Assembly: GCA_949744075.1 (NCBI GenBank) | Contig: CATJWI010000087.1 | Location: 1 to 33,468 of the forward strand | Origin: an uncultured Eubacteriales bacterium | Lineage (GTDB): Bacteria > Bacillota > Clostridia > Oscillospirales > Oscillospiraceae | Direction of reading: 5' to 3' | DNA length: 33,468 nt | In this document: in pieces, positions 5,986 through 32,838 of the stretch | How positions within the stretch are numbered: the first letter of the stretch is position 1 | Layout of the letters: each line of letters opens with the position of its first letter | Notes under the pieces: model-generated | Seen by the model: only the letters and a program-made list of their open reading frames with translations | Databases searched by the model: none | What the model was told of the DNA's origin: nothing | Translations under genes and position numbers: made by a program

Positions 5986-6018
5986 AAACACAGGGGCCTT
6001 ACCGGCCCCTGTGTTTTT
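5984..6018. terminator. Bidirectional terminator between the DUF2971 gene and yjdF
   Basis: A 15-bp perfect stem (AAAAACACAGGGGCC / GGCCCCTGTGTTTTT) around a TTACC loop, with A and T runs on the flanks so it can work on both strands. The yjdF stop codon lies in the loop, so the two convergent genes share it. Confidence 0.9.
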
Positions 6019-6418
6019 GCTTTCTCTTCTCCTGGCGGAGCCGGAACCTTCTCTCCTCCTCCGCCATTTTGTCCTCCCGGCTCTTCTCCCGCCGGGCTTC
6101 CTTTCCCTCCGTCCGCTGGAGCTTCAAGGCCTCCTGGGCCTTGGTGCCCACCGGGGCCTTGGACAGCTGCCGGGCAGCCTCTCTCCTGGCCCGCTTGGGG
6201 TTTTTCGCTGCGGCTGCCCTTCTCTCCATGGGCAGCGCCTCGGAAAACCGCAGCTGCCTCCAGTGGTCCAGCAGCGCCGCGTAGACCTCAAAGTCCCGGG
6301 GCTCCGCGCCGAAGGTGAGCTTACACGCCGAATACCGGCCGCCCTCCTCCCGCTCGATGAGCCCCACCCAAAAGGGGTCCTGAAAGAAGACTGTGATGGT
6401 ACAGGTATCGCATGCCAT
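5999..6418 (-). CDS. yjdF: YjdF family protein (DUF2992)
   Basis: 139 residues from ATG 6418, chosen for AAGGAGG 7 nt upstream; the longer track start falls inside the leader structure. The N-terminal half is the conserved part (TITVFFQDPFWVGLIERE, then ACKLTFGAEPRDFEVYAALL). The C-terminal half is a highly charged Lys/Arg/Glu helix. In Firmicutes this family is commonly controlled by the yjdF riboswitch, which responds to azaaromatic compounds, and is thought to help cells deal with them; the reaction is unknown. Here too a ~150-nt structured leader precedes the gene. It is convergent with the DUF2971 gene and divergent from the membrane protein gene. Confidence 0.85.
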   Translation of the reverse strand: MACDTCTITVFFQDPFWVGLIEREEGGRYSACKLTFGAEPRDFEVYAALLDHWRQLRFSEALPMERRAAAAKNPKRARREAARQLSKAPVGTKAQEALKLQRTEGKEARREKSREDKMAEEERRFRLRQEKRKQKHRGR

Positions 6419-6424
6419 AGAACT

Positions 6425-6530
6425 TCCTCCTTTTTGCCGTTCCACGGAGAAGGGACAACCAAGGAGGCAGGTTACTGACGGCATTGGTTCAAATGCCGCG
6501 CCCGGACTACCCGACCGGGCCGTGTTTTTA
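6425..6530 (-). ncRNA. Candidate yjdF-class riboswitch leader
   Basis: Read on the minus strand, the leader holds a stem CCCGG/CCGGG (6519-6515 with 6505-6501). Next is a strong hairpin CGGCATT/AATGCCG (6498-6479), then CCTCCTT (6467-6461), which is exactly complementary to the ribosome site AAGGAGG (6432-6426). A CCGT (6447-6444) can pair either with the nearby ACGG (6440-6437) or with an identical ACGG at the 5' end of the structure (6523-6520). Two exclusive pairings plus a sequestered ribosome site are what a translational switch needs. Assignment to the yjdF class rests on the downstream gene, not on a covariance search. Confidence 0.65.
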
Positions 6531-6571
6531 TCCCCGCATATTCTATTTTGTGCTTCATCACCACCAGCTTT

Positions 6572-12793: not shown

Positions 12794-15700
12794 TTATTTT
12801 CCCTCCGGGAGGATGACCTCCAACCTGTGCTCCCCCTTCAGCCCTGTCAGGAGAAGCTCCTCCGCGGTAGCACCGTCCAAAAGGGTCCGGGCCGTTTCCC
12901 CCCGCCGGACCAGAATGTGCAGCATACCCTCCGGCAGGGCCCAACGGAGCTCACAGCCGGTCCAGGTCTTGGGAAGGTTCGGTTTTACCGTAAGGCGTCC
13001 TTCCTTAACAGTTATACCCAGCAACCCCTCCAGGGCCGCCTGATGATACCAGCCCGCCGCCCCGGTGTACCAGCTCCAGCCGCCCCGGCCCCGGTGCTGT
13101 GGGTGGGCGTACACATCCGCCGCCAGCACATAGGGCTCCGCCTTATAGACCTCCTCCGGGTGGGTGGAGGGCAGAAGAGCGTGGAGCAGGGCCTGCCCCT
13201 CCTCCGGCCTGCCGTCCCGGAAGCAGGCCAGGGCCAGCCAGACGGCGGCGTGGGTATACTGTCCGCCGTTCTCCCGGACGCCGGGGAGATAACCCCGGAT
13301 ATAGCCTGGCCGGGCCTCCCCGTCGTCAAAGGCGGGGTCGAAAAGCCGGACCAGTCCGGCCTCCCGGTCAAACAGTCTCTCCAAGGCGGCCGTAAGGGCC
13401 TTGTCTCCCTTTTCTCCCCCGGCGAAAAGGGCCCAGCTCTGGGGGATCGAATCGATTTGGCACTCCTGGGAGTCACTGCTGCCCAAAGGTTGGCCGTCAT
13501 CATACCAGCCCCGGAGATACCATTCCCCGTCCCAGGCCGCCTCGGCCGCCTCCCGCAGCTTACGGGCCCAGTCCCGGCAGAGGGCCTCTCCCTCCCGGTC
13601 TTCCCGCTGCGCCGTTAGAGGCAGAAATGCCTCCAATGTCACCACGGCAAACCAGGTCAGCCACACGCTCTCTCCCCGACCCCGGCCGCCCACCTCATTC
13701 ATGCCGTCGTTCCAATCTCCGGCGCCCATTTTCAGCAGACCGTGTTCCCCGGTCCCCCGGTCGATCACACACCGAATGGCCTGAAGGGCATGGGCATAAA
13801 CGTCCTCTGTCTCCGCTGTGGATCGAGGGACAAAATATCGTTCCTTCTCCTCTGGTTTCAGCGGTTCCCCTGACAAGCAACTTACCTGTTCAGATAATAT
13901 ATTCCAATCATCCCAAGCGGAAATATACCGGCTCAGCGCATAGGGCAGCCATAGCAGATCATCGGAGATCCGGGTGCGGACCCCCCGGTTCTTTTCCTCC
14001 CCCACCTCGTGCCACCAGTGCTGTACGTCCCCCTCCCAAAACTGGTGGGCACAGCAGCGCAGGATCTGATCCCGGGCCCATTCCGGCTGAAAGGGTAGCA
14101 GGGCAAGGGTGTCCTGTAGCTGGTCCCGGAACCCGTAGGCCCCACCGTTCTGGTAGTGGGAGGTCCGTCCCAGCAGGCGGCAGGCGATCACCTGGTAAAG
14201 GCACCAGCCGTTGAGATATTCGTCCAGAGCCGGGTCCGGCGTCTTCACTTTCAGAGGGCACACCAGCTCCCGCCATCGCTTTTCCGTAGCTGTCAGCAAA
14301 GGGCCAAACTGCTCCGGGTCCACCCGTTCCGTTCCCCCCGCCCCGGTGGCAAGACACACCCGCTCTCCAAAACTGTAAAGGGCCTCCTCTTTCCCCAGGC
14401 AGATATGCCGCAGCTCCCCCGCTCCCTCGGGCAGCTCCACCAGCAAGAGCCGCCGGTTTTGATCCCAGGGGACCAGGGCGGTGGTCTTCACCGTCCCGCC
14501 GGGCCATTTCTTCTCCCAGCAGGCCCAGCCAAACCCGTAGGTCACAGTCACGCCCAGTCCGTCCCCGTCCGCAAAGAGACTGTGGCTCTCCCCCTTCCAG
14601 CCCAGCAGGAACCATTCCGGCCCACCCACTGCCAGAGGGTCGTTATTCCAGGGCGTGATGGGAGACTCCCGGGAATTGCCCTGCCACAAGTGGCCACATC
14701 CGCTCTCATCCATGATCCAGCCAAAGCTGGGATTGGTCAGGAGTTGGCTCCAGCCCAAGGGAGGCAGGTTTCCGTTTAGTTGTAAAGCAAATTCACTTTC
14801 TGGGGCGAAGTTCCATTGGACAGGCTCCCCAGCAAGCCGGCAGCTCCGCCTGGGCGGCTGAACCGGCTCTTTTCCCTCTTTCTTCCACTGCCCCTGGGGC
14901 GTTATCAGCACTGCCGCCCAATCCTCCCAGGGGCTGGAATCCCCCTCTATCAGGTGGATTCCACCCTTTCGCCCCAACTGCCCCTCCCGGCCCAGGGCCT
15001 TGATCTGCTCCAGCACCCCGCTTTTTTGCGGTCGAAGATAGCTGCCCCCATCCGAGAGGAGATAGACCAGGTCAAAGGAATAGCTGCATTGGCTCAAAAG
15101 GGCATGGGCCTTCAACGGGAACAGCTCTACTCCCTCCTCCCCGGGTTGGACCACGGCCAGGGGCAGGTCTCCCGACACGCCGTAGGCCCACAGGGCCGAT
15201 TGAGGACTGTCTCCCCGCTCCCGGCCGGGAAAATTCAGGACAGAGAGCAGCTCCATGGCCCGCTCCTCCTCCCCGGCGGAGAGCTGCAGCTCCCGCAGGA
15301 GACCGTCCAACCGCCCTACCGTCTGCTCCGGGGCGGAGAGCACCGACAGGGCCGTCCGCTCCGCCTGCTCCTCCCCATCCTCAAAGCCCAGAGCCAGCCG
15401 GAGATGAAATCTCCCGTTCTCCCCCAAGGGAAAGCGGACCAGCAGGCAGGGGTCCAGCACCGCGCCCGCGCTATGCTCCGCCTGGGCCTCCAAAGCCTGC
15501 TCCAACCGGCGCAGGCCGCCGCGGCCCAGGGCCTTCTCCCGGCTGGTGTCCCAGGTGGCCTCCTCTCGGTCCCAGAGCACTGAAACCGTCGCCCGCCGGT
15601 CTCCCGTCCTGGGGCGTCGCACAAAGGTCATCCCCCGATCCAGAACTTTACTCTCCAGAGAGAGCTTGGAATAGGCCGGATGGGCCCGGTGATCCTCCGG

Positions 15701-18700
15701 CCGGGCCAGCATGGGCTCCAGATAGCACACTACCTCCCCCGCCTCCGGCCCCTCCAGAGCTACCGTCCACAACGCGCCCCGTTCCCCTCTGGGAAGGATC
15801 AGCCGTATCTTTGCTGTAAAGGTCTTTCCATTTGCAGTCCATGTGGCCCCGCCGCCGTCAAAGCTCCAGTCAAAATTCCCCTCTTCCAGCAGGGGCGCCC
15901 CAGTCAGCGGCCACAGCTCCCCTCCCGGGTCCCGGTAAAAAAAGCTGACTCCCGCCGGGGCATAGCGCTGTCGGAGCTGACTGACCAGAGGGCTCTCCCC
16001 CTGTTCATTGGTAAGGGCCACTGCCCCGGCGTCAGTGCACAGGGCGGAAAGCAGCCCGTTGGACAGCAAGTGACAGGCCGGCCGGGCTAGGTCAAAGCCC
16101 GATCCCGTCCTGCAAAATTGACTCTGCCGCTGGGGCCGGCTCCGCTCCGGTCCTGCCTGGCGGCCCGTCTTCATTACGGGAGCCCCCACCGGCACCTTCT
16201 CCTGAAGCAGCTCCCGGAAGGCCCCCATGGCGCAGTCTCTTAGAAAGCGCTTCTGCATCACATTGTCCATCAAGGCGTTGTCCACCGCCACCAGGCTCAT
16301 GCCCAAGTGGTGAGCCATAAAGGAGCGAACCACCGCCCACTTCTCTCCCTCCGGCAGATGGGCGGGGGTAAAATCCACCGCCTCATAAAGGCCGTATTCC
16401 CCCTCCAGGCCCATGTCCCGCAGCCTTCTCAGGTTCCGCCCCGCGCTTCTGGGGGCCAGCAGCAGGGTCAGGAAGGAGGCATAAGGGGCCACCACCAGCT
16501 CCCGGTCCAGCCCCCGCTTCAGGCCCAAGGCCTGGACCCCGTGGGCCTTATACTGGTAAGCCATCCCGGGGTCAAAGGCATAAAACCCCGACTCCGAGAT
16601 GCCCCAGGGCCTTCCCGCCCGGCCGCCCCGCCTTTTCTGGGCGTAGACGCAGAAGGACAGGGACTCGTACATCAAACTCCCCTGCTCACAGGGCAGCAGC
16701 AGGTTGGGCATAAAATACTCGAACATGGTCCCCGTCCAGGAGGCCATACCGCAGTAGTCGTTCTCCCCCACCAGGGCCCGGCTCAGCTTCCGCCAGTGGC
16801 GGGGGTCCACCTCTCCCGAGGCGATGGCCAGATAGCTGGCAAGCCGGGCCTCGCTGGCCATCAGGTCGTACCAGCCGGCGGTAAACTCCTCCTTCTCCAC
16901 GTCATAGCCGATGGTGAACAGCTTCCGGCTCTCGTCATAGAGGGGCGAGAGGGCCATGGCGTCGGATAAGACCTCCGCCCGGCGGGCCAGGGCATCCTCC
17001 CCCCACTCGTAGAGGGCCTCCCGCAGGGCGATGAGACAGCCCTTCAAATTGCCGCTGTCCACCGTGGAGACATACTGGGGCCGTAGTGGGGCGCAGTTCG
17101 AGGTATCATACCAGTTGTAAAGGTGCCCCTTCCACTTGGGCAGAGCTTCCACCGTATCCAGGATGTGGCCGATGAGCTCCACCGCCTGCCCCCGGCCTGT
17201 CAGCTCCAGGTCGGCGGCGGCCACGCAGCTCAAAAGGGCCATCCCGATATTGGTGGGGGAGGTCCGGCGGGCCGGGCCCAGCCAGGGCTTCTCCTGGACG
17301 TTGTCCGGCGGCAGCCAGTGGTCCTCCTCCCGGAGCCAGTCCTGGAAATAACCCCAGATCAGGGCGGCCTGATGCAGCAGGAAGGGCCTGTCGTCCCCGT
17401 TGGCCCCCTTCCCCTCCTTCACCGGCCGGGACATGGCCCAGGCAAAGGCCGGGGAGGCCGCCCACACAAGGCCCATGGCCGCCCCCGCCGGGAACCGGGC
17501 AAATCCCATGGCAAAAAGTCCCACCGCCACCGCCGGCCATTGGGTCCGGAAGTTGCTCCCGATCCCCTCCTTTTTCCGCTCGGCGTCCGCCGCCGTCACC
17601 CATTCCAGCATTTTTTTGTGGCTTATCACCCCCCGCCACAGAGCGGTGCAGATGGCCGAGGCGCTGATCCAGGCGTGATAGGGCAAAAAGAGGAGCTGTA
17701 CCAAGGTCTGAAGGATCATCCCTCCCGGCCCGGCGATGATGGTGGCGTGGTACCGCCGCCGCAGTCCCACTCCCCCCCGGATGGCCAGGTCCGCTCCGGT
17801 AAGCAGCAGGTTGGACCAGGCGGAGACGATAGCCAGAGCCGCCGCGGCTCCGAAGGCCGGGGCGGACAGGCACATCCCCAGCAGCAGAGCCACCAGGGTA
17901 AACACAGGGGAAAGGCTCCGGCGCAGGTTATCAAAGAGCTTCCACTTATCCATGGGGGCAATGGGATTCTCCACCCGCTCCCCCTTCTCATTCCGCACAT
18001 ACCGCCCCAGCCAGGGCAGCAGCTGCCAATCCCCCCGGACCCAGCGGTGGAGCCGGGAAAAATAGCCGGAGACCTTGTAGGGATACCCGTCGGTCAGCTC
18101 CACATCCTCCAACAGCCCCGCATGGAGATAGGCCCCCTCCAGAAGGTCGTGGGACAGGACTCGGTCCTGGGGGAACCGGCCCTCCAGGCATTGGGCAAAG
18201 GCCTCCACATCGAAAATGCCCTTGCCCGTATAGGTCCCCCGGTCAAAGAGGTCGTGATATACGTCGCTGCAGGCCCCGCCGTAGGGGTCGATCCCCCCCT
18301 GGCCGGCAAAGATGCGGGAGAACTGGGAGCGGTTGGCCGCCTTCAGCTCCACCCCCACCCGAGGCTGAAGCAATCCATAGCCCGCCGTCACCACCCGCCG
18401 GCGGGGGTCCACCTGGGGCCGGTTCAGGGGGTGGAGCATAGCCCCCACCAGCTCCCGGGCCGCCCCCACGTTGAGGGCGGTATCGGAGTCCAGCGTAATG
18501 ACATACCGGGTGTTTTTCAGCGCCCTGAGCTCCCCCGCCCGGACCCGCAGGCCCGAGGGCCGCCCCCGGAGCAGGCGGGTCAGCTCCAGCAGGGCCCCCC
18601 GCTTTCTCTCCCAGCCGGTATACCGTTCATCGGTCCGTTGAAATACGGGCTGGCGGAAAAAGAGGTAGACCCCCCCGCCATATTTCTCGTTCAGGGCGTC

Positions 18701-19903
18701 CATGGCCGCCTTGGCCCGCGCCACCCACCGCCGCTCCTCCTCCCCCATGGGGGAGGCCCGGTCGGGCAGATCGGCCAGCAGGCCAAAGCGCAGTTCTCCT
18801 CCGCTGTCCCGGTTGGCCAGGTGGTACCGCTCCAGAAGGGCGGCGTACTCGTCCCCGCTCTTCTCCCCGGTCAGGAGGCCCGCAATGACGCAGAGGGTCC
18901 TGCCCTCGGGCGGGATCCCCCCTTTCAGCTCCATCCGCGGCACGCTTCTGGGCCGGACCAGGCGGACAGCAAAAAAATCCGTGAGGTTTTTCATCAGATC
19001 GGAGGCTGGCAACAGCAGGAGAAGAAACAGGGCCCAACTCTCCAGCAAAAACCCCAGCAGCAGCGCCAAAAAGAGGGTGGGCAGCAGGATCACCCCCACG
19101 TAAAGGACCCCCGAGGGCTCCCGCTCCTTCCGCTCCAAGGGCCGGCGGAACAAAAACCAGCCGATGTGCCGTTCCTGGCCCTTGCCCTCCCGGGCCAGGG
19201 CCAGGGCCTTTTCCGCCGCCTCTTCCTCCCCCAGGCCATGGCGCCGGGCCAAAAGGCAGACCTGACGGCGGTAGCGGGCCCGGGTGGCCTCGTCCATCCG
19301 GCCATAGAGCTCCGCCGGGTCCCGGCGAAGCGTCTGCTCTACCGGGCTACTCTCCTCCAAAAGCGGTCCCAGGTTGGCCACCGACAGGGTCCGCAGGCCG
19401 GTGAAAATGCCCTCCATCTCCTCGGCCAGCCCCGGCTTCTCCGGATCGGTCTCCAAAATGGAACACCGCTCCGCTAGAAGGCGGCACAGCTCTCCCTTCA
19501 GGGCGGGGATGAACAGAGACAGTTCCTCCTCCGTAAGAGCCCCCTCCTCCTGTAGGCCGGCCAGGTAGGCGCTCAGCTCCTCCTGCCCCGCGGCGGGGGC
19601 CGCCCTTCCAAAGACATAAGCCGCCTGCTGCACATAGCTCCGCTCCCCTTGGCGGCGCAGGCGCTTTCCCCGCTTCAGCTCCTCCCAGGCGGAAGCTCCC
19701 TCCCGCTTGGCCAGGTAGGCGTTGTCCAGCAGCCACTCCACCGCCGTGGGCAGCCGCTGGCAGGACTTTTGGGTCAAACGCCGGCGGGTCTCCTCGATTC
19801 GTTCTACCGCTTTCAGGACCTCCCGCGCCGCCCTTCTGCCCGGATATCTCCCCTGCGCCTGTTCCGCCCCGGCGGTCTTCCGGCCCAGCTCCTGCAAGTC
19901 CAT
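12794..19903 (-). CDS. Cyclic beta-1,2-glucan synthase-type protein (GT84 + glycoamylase-like + GH94)
   Basis: 2369 residues from ATG 19903 (AAGGGGGAGC upstream). Order of parts: a helical N-terminus; two membrane segments (~265-305); a GT84-type glycosyltransferase (~330-640) with [12 protein letters not shown] and [18 protein letters not shown]; more membrane segments (~655-825). Next comes a glycoamylase/GH144-GH189-like domain (~840-1200, [32 protein letters not shown]). Beta-sandwich and GH94 phosphorylase-like regions follow (~1260-2369), with the acidic [11 protein letters not shown] at ~2060. Known relatives (NdvB/ChvB) build beta-1,2-glucan from UDP-glucose, cyclise it and trim it by phosphorolysis. 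All three modules look intact. The product here (cyclic or linear) is inferred. No obvious exporter gene is adjacent. Confidence 0.9.
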
Positions 19904-19963
19904 GTTGCTCCCCCTTCCATCTCTCCCCAGTTTTGACAAACAGGGGCTTTTTCATACTCCCTC

Positions 19964-21513: not shown

Positions 21514-21590
21514 GGCACCCCCCGACCCTCCGGGACATATGATGGAGCGTGGCCCATGGGCTACAATTCACACACGGAGGGATCATCAAT

Positions 21591-21902
21591 ATGTGGTCTT
21601 GCGGATGTAATTCCTGCTCCTGCGGGTGTTCCTGCAGCAGCTCTTGCGGTAGTTCCTGCGGCAGCTCCTGTGGCTGCTCCTGCGGCAGTGGTTCCAACAA
21701 TGGTATCACCACCCTGCCTTCCTTCCCCAGCACGCCCGTCTTCCCCGGTTTCCCGGTTTTCCCTGACTTTTCCGCCCCTCAGTTCCCGGTCTACGTCTCC
21801 TACCCGTCCTTTTACCCCTCTGACAGCGCTGTCTTTGACGCCAACGTAGCGCTGTTCTCCCGGGACAGCGGTTCTGACAGCGGCTGCGGCTGCAACGGCT
21901 GA
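21591..21902 (+). CDS. Small Cys/Gly/Ser-rich protein of unknown function
   Basis: 103 residues from ATG 21591 (GGAGG 9 nt upstream); the track start at 21549 has no ribosome site. The N-terminal 31 residues hold 11 cysteines in CxC and CxxxC spacing (MWSCGCNSCSCGCSCSSSC, then repeated CGSS units). The middle is Phe/Pro-rich (VFPGFPVFPDF, then YVSYPSFYPS), and the C-terminus closes with two more cysteines (DSGCGCNG). There is no lysine, no signal peptide and no membrane segment. The composition suggests a metal-binding, disulfide-cross-linked or spore-surface protein. A RiPP-type precursor is less likely because there is no separate leader and no modifying enzyme nearby. A hairpin terminator follows. 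I do not recognise the family. Confidence 0.72.
   Translation: MWSCGCNSCSCGCSCSSSCGSSCGSSCGCSCGSGSNNGITTLPSFPSTPVFPGFPVFPDFSAPQFPVYVSYPSFYPSDSAVFDANVALFSRDSGSDSGCGCNG
21606..21690 (+). repeat. Degenerate short tandem repeats encoding CGSS/CxC units
   Basis: Imperfect units of 6-15 nt built from AGCTCCTGCGGC-like sequence (for example tcttgcggtagt, tcctgcggcagc, tcctgtggctgc). They stay in frame and give the CGSS and CGC peptide repeats, so the cysteine spacing may vary by slippage between strains. Confidence 0.6.
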
Positions 21903-21913
21903 ACCGGACCCTC

Positions 21914-21946
21914 GCCGCCCCTTTGGGGCGGCCTACATATTTTTCT
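21914..21946 (+). terminator. Terminator after the Cys-rich gene
   Basis: An 8-bp stem GCCGCCCC/GGGGCGGC with a TTT loop, followed within 8 nt by ATTTTTCT. It starts 12 nt after the stop codon. Confidence 0.75.
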
Positions 21947-22029: not shown

Positions 22030-22248
22030 GTGTATTTTCGACGGATCGCAGACATGCGGATCGACCATGACAAAACGCAGCTTCAAATTGCAAAGCTGCT
22101 TGGGTTGCACCCCAGCGTATACCGCCGCTATGAAAAGGGCAACCGGGATATTCCCCTGTGGGCTTTGATCCGCCTGGCCGACTATTACGAGACCAGTACC
22201 GATTATCTGCTGGGCCGGACAGATAACCCTTCCAAACCCCGTGCGTAA
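22030..22248 (+). CDS. XRE-family helix-turn-helix regulator
   Basis: 72 residues from GTG 22030. The MYFRRIADMRIDHDKTQ beginning matches many small Clostridia XRE proteins, which supports this start although the ribosome site is weak. A single Cro/C1-type helix-turn-helix covers residues ~8-65 (TQLQIAKLLGLHPSVYRRYEKG, then IRLADYYETSTDYLLGRTD). There is no effector domain, so it is a stand-alone DNA-binding protein. Its last 8 nt overlap the comEC start, so it should be co-transcribed with comEC and exoA. Targets are unknown. No strong promoter is seen in the AT-rich 85 nt upstream. Confidence 0.88.
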   Translation: MYFRRIADMRIDHDKTQLQIAKLLGLHPSVYRRYEKGNRDIPLWALIRLADYYETSTDYLLGRTDNPSKPRA

Positions 22249-25387: not shown

Positions 25388-27304
25388 ATGAAACACAGAT
25401 TTTTCTCCCGCTTGTCGGCGTTGACCCTCTCCCTCGCCCTGCTGGCCCTCCCCGCCGCCCGGGCCCTTACCCCCGGACAGGCCGGGCAGCTTTTGCAGGA
25501 GGTTTACATCGATCCGGTGCCCCAGTCCGTACTGGAGCAGCCCACCGTCAAGGAGATGGTGGCAGCCCTGGGGGACCCCTATACCGAATACTTCACCCCC
25601 GAGGAGTACCAGGCTTTCAACGCCTCCATGTCCGACACCTCCCTGGTGGGCATCGGCGTCGTCTTCCGCAATACCGAGGAGGGGCTGCTACTGGAGCAGG
25701 TCCTTCCCGACTCTCCCTCCCTCAAGGCCGGGCTGGAGGCCGGGGACCTGATCGTGGCCGTGGACGGTAACAGCGTCCTGGGGCAGGACAACGACACCGT
25801 CACCGGCTGGATCCAGGGGGAGGAGGGCACCGCCGTCAAGGTGACCTACCTCCGCGGCGGAAACCGGAAAACGGTCACCCTCACCCGGGCTCAGGTCATC
25901 CTGCCCGCCACCACCAGTGAGCTCATCGACGGCCACATCGGCTATATCAGCTGCACCACCTTCGGCCCCGAGACCGCCGGGCATTTCAAGGAGGCTCTGG
26001 ACGCATACGGGGACAAGGCCACCGTCTGGATCGTGGACCTGCGCTCCAACTCAGGGGGCGTCACCGAGGCCGCCACCACCTCTGCCGGGTACTTCACAGG
26101 CGCCGGGGAGATGGCCTACCTCCGGGACAGCGAGGACCAGTACGGCGCCTACTATAACGAGGACAGCGCCCTCACCCTCTACCCGGTGATCGTACTGGTG
26201 GACCTATACTCCGCCAGCGCCTCGGAGATCTTCGCCTCCGCCATCCGGGACCAGGGCTCCGGCATCGTGGTGGGCACCCGGACCTTTGGAAAAGGGGTGG
26301 CCCAGAGCGTGGTGGACCAGTCCTACCGCCCTGAGCTCTTCCCCGACGGAGACGCCATCAAGATCACCTCCCACCGCTTCTTTACCCCCGCCGGCAACAC
26401 TACCGATCAAGTAGGGGTCATCCCAGACCTGCTGGTGGAGCCCGAGGAGATCGCCAATGTGGCCTATCTGCTGGCCGGGGCCGCCCCCACCTCCGACACC
26501 ACAAACGTCCTCCGGGCCGACATCGACTGGCGGTGGTTCATCGACCTGGACCTGGCCACCAGCGCGGACTTTCGGGACACCTTCCTGGACCTGCTGCAGG
26601 CCATTCCCCAAAACAAAAACCTATGGCTGGGTACCGGCGGCCCCGACGGCTGGACGCGGACCGACCCTGAGTCGGTGGCCGAAACCTATGGCCTGGACTA
26701 CCAGGCCCCCGTCTTCCCCGATCAGGACGACTCCCGCTATTCCACTGTTCTCAGCGTCTTGAAGACCTACGGCCTCATTAACGGCCGGGAGGACGGACTC
26801 TTCCACCCCCAGGACACCCTGACCCGGGCTGAGCTGTGCCAGCTGCTGGCGGTGGCCCTCCACTGTACCGTCCCCACCAACGAGAGCCCCTACTCCGATG
26901 TGGCCGACGACGCCTGGTACGCCCCGGCGGTCATCGCCATGAGCAACATGGGCCTGGTCCAGGGAATCGGCGAGGACACCTTCCGCCCCGACGACCCGGT
27001 GGACCACCAGCAGCTCATTACCATCATGGGCCGGCTGGCCCAGCGGCTCAACATGTTCCTCTATAACACGGTGCAGGAGCACCAGGGCGGCTTCTCCAGC
27101 ATCGCCGGGCTCATGGACTACGACGAGTGGGCCAAGGAGTCCGCCTGGCTGCTGTCCTACAGCCAAAAGGGCTATTTGGGCAACACCATCTCCCTGCTCT
27201 GGGCCAGTGCCGACGAGATCGCCCCCACAGCGGCCACCACCCGGGACGAGGCGGCCTACGCCCTCTACCGCCTCCTCTCCTACACCGGGATCCTCCCCGC
27301 CTAA
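25388..27304 (+). CDS. Secreted S41 (CtpA-like) protease with C-terminal SLH repeats
   Basis: 638 residues. A signal peptide (MKHRFFSRLSALTLSLALLA, cut near ARA-LTP) sends it out of the cell. A PDZ domain spans ~85-165 (LVGIGVVF; KAGLEAGDLIVAVDG). The S41 domain spans ~180-360 with VWIVDLRSNSGG (~216), the serine in SASASEIFASA (~275) and the lysine in TFGKGVAQS (~300). SLH-type repeats from ~450 to the end (GREDGLFHPQDTLTRAEL; YSDVADDAWYAPAV) should tie it to secondary cell-wall polymers. The usual CtpA lacks SLH repeats, so this is a wall-bound version that may process surface or spore proteins. Single-gene unit. Confidence 0.92.
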   Translation: MKHRFFSRLSALTLSLALLALPAARALTPGQAGQLLQEVYIDPVPQSVLEQPTVKEMVAALGDPYTEYFTPEEYQAFNASMSDTSLVGIGVVFRNTEEGLLLEQVLPDSPSLKAGLEAGDLIVAVDGNSVLGQDNDTVTGWIQGEEGTAVKVTYLRGGNRKTVTLTRAQVILPATTSELIDGHIGYISCTTFGPETAGHFKEALDAYGDKATVWIVDLRSNSGGVTEAATTSAGYFTGAGEMAYLRDSEDQYGAYYNEDSALTLYPVIVLVDLYSASASEIFASAIRDQGSGIVVGTRTFGKGVAQSVVDQSYRPELFPDGDAIKITSHRFFTPAGNTTDQVGVIPDLLVEPEEIANVAYLLAGAAPTSDTTNVLRADIDWRWFIDLDLATSADFRDTFLDLLQAIPQNKNLWLGTGGPDGWTRTDPESVAETYGLDYQAPVFPDQDDSRYSTVLSVLKTYGLINGREDGLFHPQDTLTRAELCQLLAVALHCTVPTNESPYSDVADDAWYAPAVIAMSNMGLVQGIGEDTFRPDDPVDHQQLITIMGRLAQRLNMFLYNTVQEHQGGFSSIAGLMDYDEWAKESAWLLSYSQKGYLGNTISLLWASADEIAPTAATTRDEAAYALYRLLSYTGILPA

Positions 27305-32574: not shown

Positions 32575-32586
32575 AATCAAAACACA

Positions 32587-32838
32587 ATGAAGGGAAGAAG
32601 GTCCCCGGACCCCCCTCAGAGAGCTGGCGGTCGGTGCGAGCCAGCGGGCAGGTCCCCTGACGTATACTGGTCCCCGAGTGGTCCGGCTGAACTCTTTCAG
32701 TAGGCCGGAACGTATGGCCCCGTTAGCGGCCGCGGCCTTGTTGGAGGCCATGAGGGCTGTTTGGGACAACCGGCAGCCGAATCAGGGTGGTACCGCGTGA
32801 TATACGCCCCTGACCAGAAATGGTCGGGGGCGTTTTTT
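32587..32838 (+). ncRNA. T-box leader, probably leucine-specific, controlling leuA
   Basis: A T-box riboswitch reads the charging state of a tRNA and decides termination. Stem I shows the AGAGAG bulge and the distal-loop signature GGTCGGTGCGAGCC (~32620-32645). A CTC at 32692-32694 in the sequence GAACTC is the likely specifier for tRNA-Leu. The T-box AGGGTGGTACCGCG lies at 32784-32797; its TGGT would pair with the tRNA acceptor end. The terminator follows directly. Leucine specificity is supported by both the CTC and the downstream leuA; the exact specifier alignment is my reading, not a model hit. Confidence 0.9.
32804..32838 (+). terminator. Regulated terminator of the leuA T-box
   Basis: A 13-bp stem ACGCCCCTGACCA/TGGTCGGGGGCGT (one G-T pair) with a GAAA tetraloop and six T. 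It competes with the antiterminator that includes the T-box sequence. Confidence 0.93.

Follow-up and report, generated by a model that had tools for sequence, protein, structure and literature searches.

A lysine-free, cysteine-rich protein family of Oscillospiraceae behind a sigma-K-type promoter, presumed to contribute to the spore coat or exosporium

Cysteine-rich proteins have been described from the spore surface of several bacteria. CdeM, found in the exosporium of C. difficile, is a protein of 161 residues with 8.7% cysteine and no conserved domain, called unique to C. difficile (PMC6101409). CdeC, an exosporium morphogenetic protein of the Peptostreptococcaceae, is cysteine-rich as well, and self-assembles partly via disulfides (PMC7677010). 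CsxA from C. sporogenes and CotY/ExsY from Bacillus form disulfide-locked arrays at the spore surface, while the clostridial protein and its Bacillus counterparts have no homology to each other (PMC7333573).

The gene described here lies in a stretch of 33,468 nucleotides, referred to as the window, from the draft genome, 78% complete, of an uncultured gut bacterium. The family to which its product belongs resembles CdeM, being short, taxon-restricted and cysteine-rich; CdeM resides on the spore surface, where the new family may be presumed to reside too. The two differ in that CdeM contains lysine and the repeats CHK and CNCCNCCRK, while the family is lysine-free, 61–103 residues long, with about 15% cysteine and a centre of the FPVYVSYPAF type. 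CdeC has 37 cysteines and NPC and CCRQGKGK repeats, none of which is seen in the family; CsxA has 25 cysteines and forms a crystalline lattice, whereas the family member from the window is predicted to be disordered and shows no sequence match to it. Profiles and published descriptions set the family apart from CdeC/CdeM, CsxA and CotY/ExsY: the 17 members searched match nothing in Pfam or NCBIfam, and the lysine-bearing repeats are absent. In kind, the family very probably joins the cysteine-rich spore-surface proteins; in sequence, judging from profile searches and repeat descriptions, it appears unrelated to the known ones.

The open reading frame, at 21591-21902 on the forward strand (as are all features described below, unless indicated), encodes 103 residues, followed by a TGA stop: MWSCGCNSCSCGCSCSSSCGSSCGSSCGCSCGSGSNNGITTLPSFPSTPVFPGFPVFPDFSAPQFPVYVSYPSFYPSDSAVFDANVALFSRDSGSDSGCGCNG. 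Translation bears out an earlier reading, made from the sequence alone, of 11 cysteines within the first 31 residues (positions 4, 6, 9, 11, 13, 15, 19, 23, 27, 29 and 31; 13 in the whole protein), a closing CGC and no lysine. Two parts are distinguished by the alignments: an N-terminal cysteine cluster, variable in length and spacing (residues 4-31, 21600-21683), and a conserved core, delimited by invariant or near-invariant columns (residues 40-89, 21708-21857), which reads TTLPSFPxTP...FPVYVSYPSF...DANVALF. The AlphaFold model has a mean pLDDT of 51 and a single helix, at residues 78-89, of low confidence: the protein is predicted to be mostly disordered.

A search with the single protein found relatives from the same genus, all keeping the frame, with E values from 1e-9 to 1e-21. 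Two alignment profiles (A1 and A2) brought in relatives from further genera within the bacterial family. In all, 23 homologues were found, spread over some six genera of a single family; named records among them are assigned to Oscillospiraceae/Pseudoflavonifractor. The profile built from the 20 catalogued members (A5; four further members were found later) matched 24 of 401 genomes of the family, three of these matches being weak, with internal stops or short frames. Weak matches carrying internal stops or falling in unrelated frames were dropped (L011, L012, L043 and G123/G269/G014:C48), and G123 and G269, each with an internal stop, are not counted as members. When the same profile was run on 391 genomes spread over the class, the window's own genome was the only match; in a sample of 394 genomes from the order all matches came from the same family, save a weak one with an internal stop. 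A match of 58% over 30 residues was also seen in Opitutales (L021).

No credible match was found for the window protein in Pfam, NCBIfam or PHROGs, and a profile search of PDB returned chance-level matches only, including a tail-spike at E 0.1; in these four collections the statement that no family is recognised therefore stands. As defined by these searches, the family is new, restricted to one taxon and without a recognised domain. For the ten copies from the same genus the median pN/pS is 0.43, indicating that the frame is under purifying selection. The reading frame is a real gene, as had been suggested from the sequence alone: homologues keep the frame, pN/pS is low, and the flanking promoter, ribosome site and 3' hairpin are likewise conserved, more than chance would allow.

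All homologues are short and rich in cysteine, with 8 to 17 cysteines per protein, the first cysteine of the cluster falling at residues 2-6. The 20 catalogued members sum to 1,572 residues, of which 15.1% are cysteine, 0.3% histidine and none lysine; the four members found later likewise lack lysine. At a lysine frequency of 3%, the odds of such an absence by chance are below 1e-20, when residues are treated as independent, though members are related. With its high cysteine content, short length and low complexity, the family fits the functional class of cysteine-rich coat and exosporium structural proteins. The cysteine-rich character is thus kept in relatives, while the exact spacing is not: number and spacing of cysteines vary freely among the aligned homologues, and the emphasis of the sequence-only reading on a CxC/CxxxC order was misplaced. 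What stays constant is the Phe/Pro-rich centre, ITTLPSFP...FPVYVSYPAF. Within the genus it takes the form xNGITTLPSFPDTPxF...FPVYVSYPAFYAG...GANxALF; in other genera it reads xPVY[VL]S[IV]PAFLW, and a C-terminal cluster of the CGC type is usually present.

This distribution of constraint bears on the possibility that the protein is a spore-associated metal sink, whose cysteines would bind Zn, Cu or Cd in thiolate clusters in the manner of a metallothionein, any cross-linking being secondary. A cluster rich in CxC and CC, with up to 17 cysteines in a protein, would fit, and a late mother-cell promoter, such as the one described below, is compatible with it. Yet it is the cysteine-free centre that is conserved, rather than the cysteines; histidine is scarce and lysine absent. 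Bacterial metallothioneins, like cysteine-rich precursors of ribosomally made peptides (RiPPs), are small and cysteine-rich, but the family differs from both in anatomy and matches no Pfam or NCBIfam profile; neither the conserved cysteine spacing nor the known profile of metallothioneins is found. At seven loci from different genera, examined by reading, no obvious gene for metal transport or metal regulation is seen. We regard a metal sink as unlikely.

The neighbours of the gene are informative also for a second alternative, a RiPP precursor of thiopeptide, heterocycloanthracin or sactipeptide type, with the cysteine-rich segment as its core. In ten genomes of the genus the gene lies behind glpK, and comEC comes next wherever the locus was read further (in the window and G014, and in G001 as far as the start of comEC). 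Three relatives (G012, G013, G015), with a GlpK of only about 70% identity, lack the gene behind glpK. Outside the genus the neighbours, identified by reading, are different (accC, icd, or glpK at a distance): the gene therefore moves as a single-gene unit, provided with its own signals. No RiPP maturase is recognisable beside the gene at the same seven loci (again by reading, not by a family scan). A short peptide rich in Cys, Ser and Gly, with CxC repeats, does recall a RiPP core. Its cluster, however, sits at the extreme N terminus, starting at residues 2-6, and so leaves no room for a leader, while the conserved segment lies downstream of the cluster; no NCBIfam RiPP model is matched, and the promoter is of sigma-K type. 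The RiPP candidate put forward earlier is therefore disfavoured, and we hold it to be highly improbable.

Other features of the window may be recorded here. A small ORF resembling XRE-type helix-turn-helix proteins (22030-22248) lies between the cysteine-rich gene and comEC, and is not seen there in G014 (L117). A yjdF (azaaromatic) riboswitch (6435-6541, minus strand; Rfam RF01764, 76.2 bits) overlies the start of an ORF at 5999-6484, minus strand, which presumably encodes a YjdF-type protein. A T-box leader (32578-32814; Rfam RF00230, 101.3 bits) is found close to the window end. A 2,381-residue ORF (12794-19939, minus strand) resembles enzymes of the cyclic beta-glucan synthetase/phosphorylase type, and another, at 25388-27304, looks like a C-terminal processing protease with SLH-type repeats after it.

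Upstream of the gene, a sigma-K-type promoter is found at 21517-21544: the -35 element AC (21517-21518) is separated by a 17-nt spacer from the -10 element CATATGAT (21536-21543). Promoters used by sigma-E and by sigma-K in C. difficile have a common -10 and differ at -35, ATA for the former and AC for the latter; the sigK P2 promoter reads AC ... CATATAAT, and sigma-K promoters have been mapped for dpaA and cotA (Saujet et al., PMC3789822). The pattern AC-N16/17-C[AG]TAnnnT precedes all 20 catalogued homologues (alignment A3 and its extension), with a spacer of exactly 17 nt in 18 of them, and all four members found later, none of which was used for training; in some genera the -10 is CGTATACT. 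The family thus features the AC/CATAnnnT signature of the sigma-K regulon, at a spacing within 16-18 nt, and not the ATA of sigma-E. No sigma-70 promoter was called upstream of the gene by the scan. Expression of the gene would accordingly depend on sigma-K, as far as promoter sequence can tell.

The same pattern, in the form AC-N16/17-CATAnnnT, was found by direct inspection before dpaA in 11 of 12 genomes of the genus, the window's own included (ACCTTCCCCACCCGGAGCGCATAGGATG); the exception is the dpaA of L124, with no match. It was absent from all 11 spoIVA upstream regions inspected, which serve as a negative control only: spoIVA follows another gene, without a visible promoter, and hence does not provide a sigma-E promoter contrast.

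The window's own genome encodes the sporulation sigma cascade. SpoIVA, SigE and SigG are present, and SigF was identified by reading (L092). SigK is partial: only its C-terminal part is available, at a contig end, where the best NCBIfam match is to SigK (1.9e-57, against 2.2e-46 for SigE). Co-occurrence with SpoIVA is uninformative for a link to sporulation, since 38 of 39 good-quality relatives carry it. Some related sporulators lack the cysteine-rich gene, for example G013, whose genome is 98% complete; the gene is therefore dispensable.

A link to sporulation genes, blind to the protein, was obtained with a covariance model (R1), trained solely on the DNA upstream of family members and run on 60 genomes. 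The model recovered the family itself, along with a divergent member from G014 (L054), missed by the single-protein search. Matches were found directly upstream of dpaA in six genomes of the genus (G001, G006, G007, G008, G011, G014) and in G025; a further one, in G006, immediately precedes a coat gene of the CotA family (NF041648, E 2.8e-69). CotA thus has a promoter type in common with the family, within the same genus, but is a domain protein of 215 positions, non-homologous to the cysteine-rich protein. Other matches precede a superoxide dismutase, several small Cys/Gly-rich peptides and two conserved unknown genes. Beyond an E of about 0.01 the matches take in ordinary genes and represent mostly noise.

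Some genes behind this promoter type deserve mention in their own right. In the window's own genome, an ORF on the minus strand (L078, G000:C145:4500-7000, at 1390-1533) encodes a 48-residue hydrophobic protein rich in Cys and Gly, MGCCNNGCGSWGGGCCWIILIIILLVCCC..., with a sigma-K-type promoter match at G000:C145:6030-6122 (minus strand). Its 5' stem-loop is strong (z -4.8), and peptides like it occur in G028 (L065) and G050 (L066). A conserved protein with the motif DKDC[IEV]EDLR, 170-310 residues long as read, recurs behind sigma-K-type promoters (L061, L080, L084, L087, L060, L068); it has no match in Pfam (two copies scanned) or NCBIfam (one copy), and has the look of an uncharacterised spore protein of wide distribution. 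In six genomes of the genus this promoter type also precedes a PRK06851-like P-loop ATPase, possibly a sporulation ATPase (L056, L057, L058, L059, L081, L082).

Because sigma-K also drives non-structural genes, such as dpaA, the promoter alone is no proof of a coat role. The protein might instead be a non-structural sporulation factor, for example one acting in redox sensing or germination, with thiols oxidised in the mature spore: it shares its promoter with enzyme genes, and its Phe/Pro centre is well conserved. Low complexity, variable length, absence from close sporulating relatives and predicted disorder are better suited to a structural part, and a factor of this kind appears decidedly improbable.

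The transcript carries signals of its own. A stem-loop, GTGGCC-CATG-GGCTAC, is located near the expected transcription start (21549-21564). In all 20 copies a stem-loop is present between the -10 and the ribosome site, with a mean z of -2.55 (Stouffer -11.4) when each sequence is folded against dinucleotide shuffles. RNAalifold, run on the MAFFT alignment A3, gives a weak signal (three predicted pairs, two of them with changes on both sides), since stem lengths differ between copies. Searches of both UTRs against Rfam gave no credible match. The ribosome site mentioned by the sequence-only reading is GGAGGG (21576-21581), placed 9 nt upstream of the ATG and belonging to a conserved block in A3.

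The terminator proposed by the same reading stands in part. A strong G+C-rich hairpin, GCCGCCCC-TTT-GGGGCGGC, does follow the stop codon, its stem at 21914-21932, and is followed in turn by CTACAT (whole element, 21914-21938). The hairpin lacks a T run beginning within 2 nt of its stem and goes uncalled in the terminator scan, and most homologues have no U tract at all behind theirs. It is specific for the gene: a pattern search found the exact element behind the gene in 10 of 10 gene-positive genomes of the genus but in 0 of 6 gene-negative genomes, with only two other matches in 40 genomes. It is followed by YTACAT within the genus, and by TACTTA in other genera.

Stem-loops just past the -10 tend to occur in genes of structural type: besides the family, the DKDCIEDLRVY protein, Cys/Gly peptides, CotA and a ferritin-like protein (5' UTRs of L080, L084, L078, L065, L066, L074 and L085). 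The dpaA and PRK06851-like ATPase genes have none at this position. The pattern is a lead only, given the small number of genes and their selection by a model which had been trained on the family. As a tentative idea, less likely to hold than to fail, sigma-K mRNAs for structural coat proteins in this bacterial family could carry a conserved 5' stem-loop, close behind the promoter, which enzyme genes of the regulon lack, marking a post-transcriptional class of long-lived coat mRNAs, of which the cysteine-rich protein would be the best-conserved member, its ban on lysine leaving only disulfides active. If so, the ban would keep the chain clear of lysine-based cross-linking, and disulfides alone would act.

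Conservation of the gene, its sigma-K-type promoter, the sporulation genes of the genome and a promoter shared with dpaA and cotA are the observations on which an interpretation can be built. The gene is quite probably a single-gene unit switched on by sigma-K, and its product a disulfide-cross-linked protein of the coat or exosporium. Standing behind a sporulation promoter, the new family most likely provides a disulfide-linked building block of the spore shell; among the roles suggested earlier, the promoter and the protein-blind link to dpaA and cotA speak strongly for a spore or surface protein cross-linked by disulfides. By analogy with known spore-surface proteins, the following course may be proposed. 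Late in sporulation, sigma-K RNA polymerase would transcribe the unit in the mother cell. The short mRNA would begin near the 5' stem-loop, which we infer to be stabilising, and would yield ample protein as the mother cell's life draws to a close. The disordered, lysine-free chain, rich in Cys, Gly and Ser, would be laid onto the forespore surface, where the conserved aromatic and proline-rich centre (FPVYVSYPAF) probably mediates docking, onto a partner or onto itself. Oxidation of the N- and C-terminal cysteine clusters would then produce inter-chain disulfides, locking a coat or exosporium layer.

Many gut Oscillospiraceae pass between hosts as spores, yet little is known of their spore-surface proteins, since coat proteins change too rapidly to be followed by homology. 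Sigma-K genes can be found with the promoter model without resorting to protein similarity, and the model yields a set of coat-protein candidates for a mostly uncultured group. The family itself would be a further independent case of cysteine-rich proteins used as spore armour, unusual for its strict absence of lysine.
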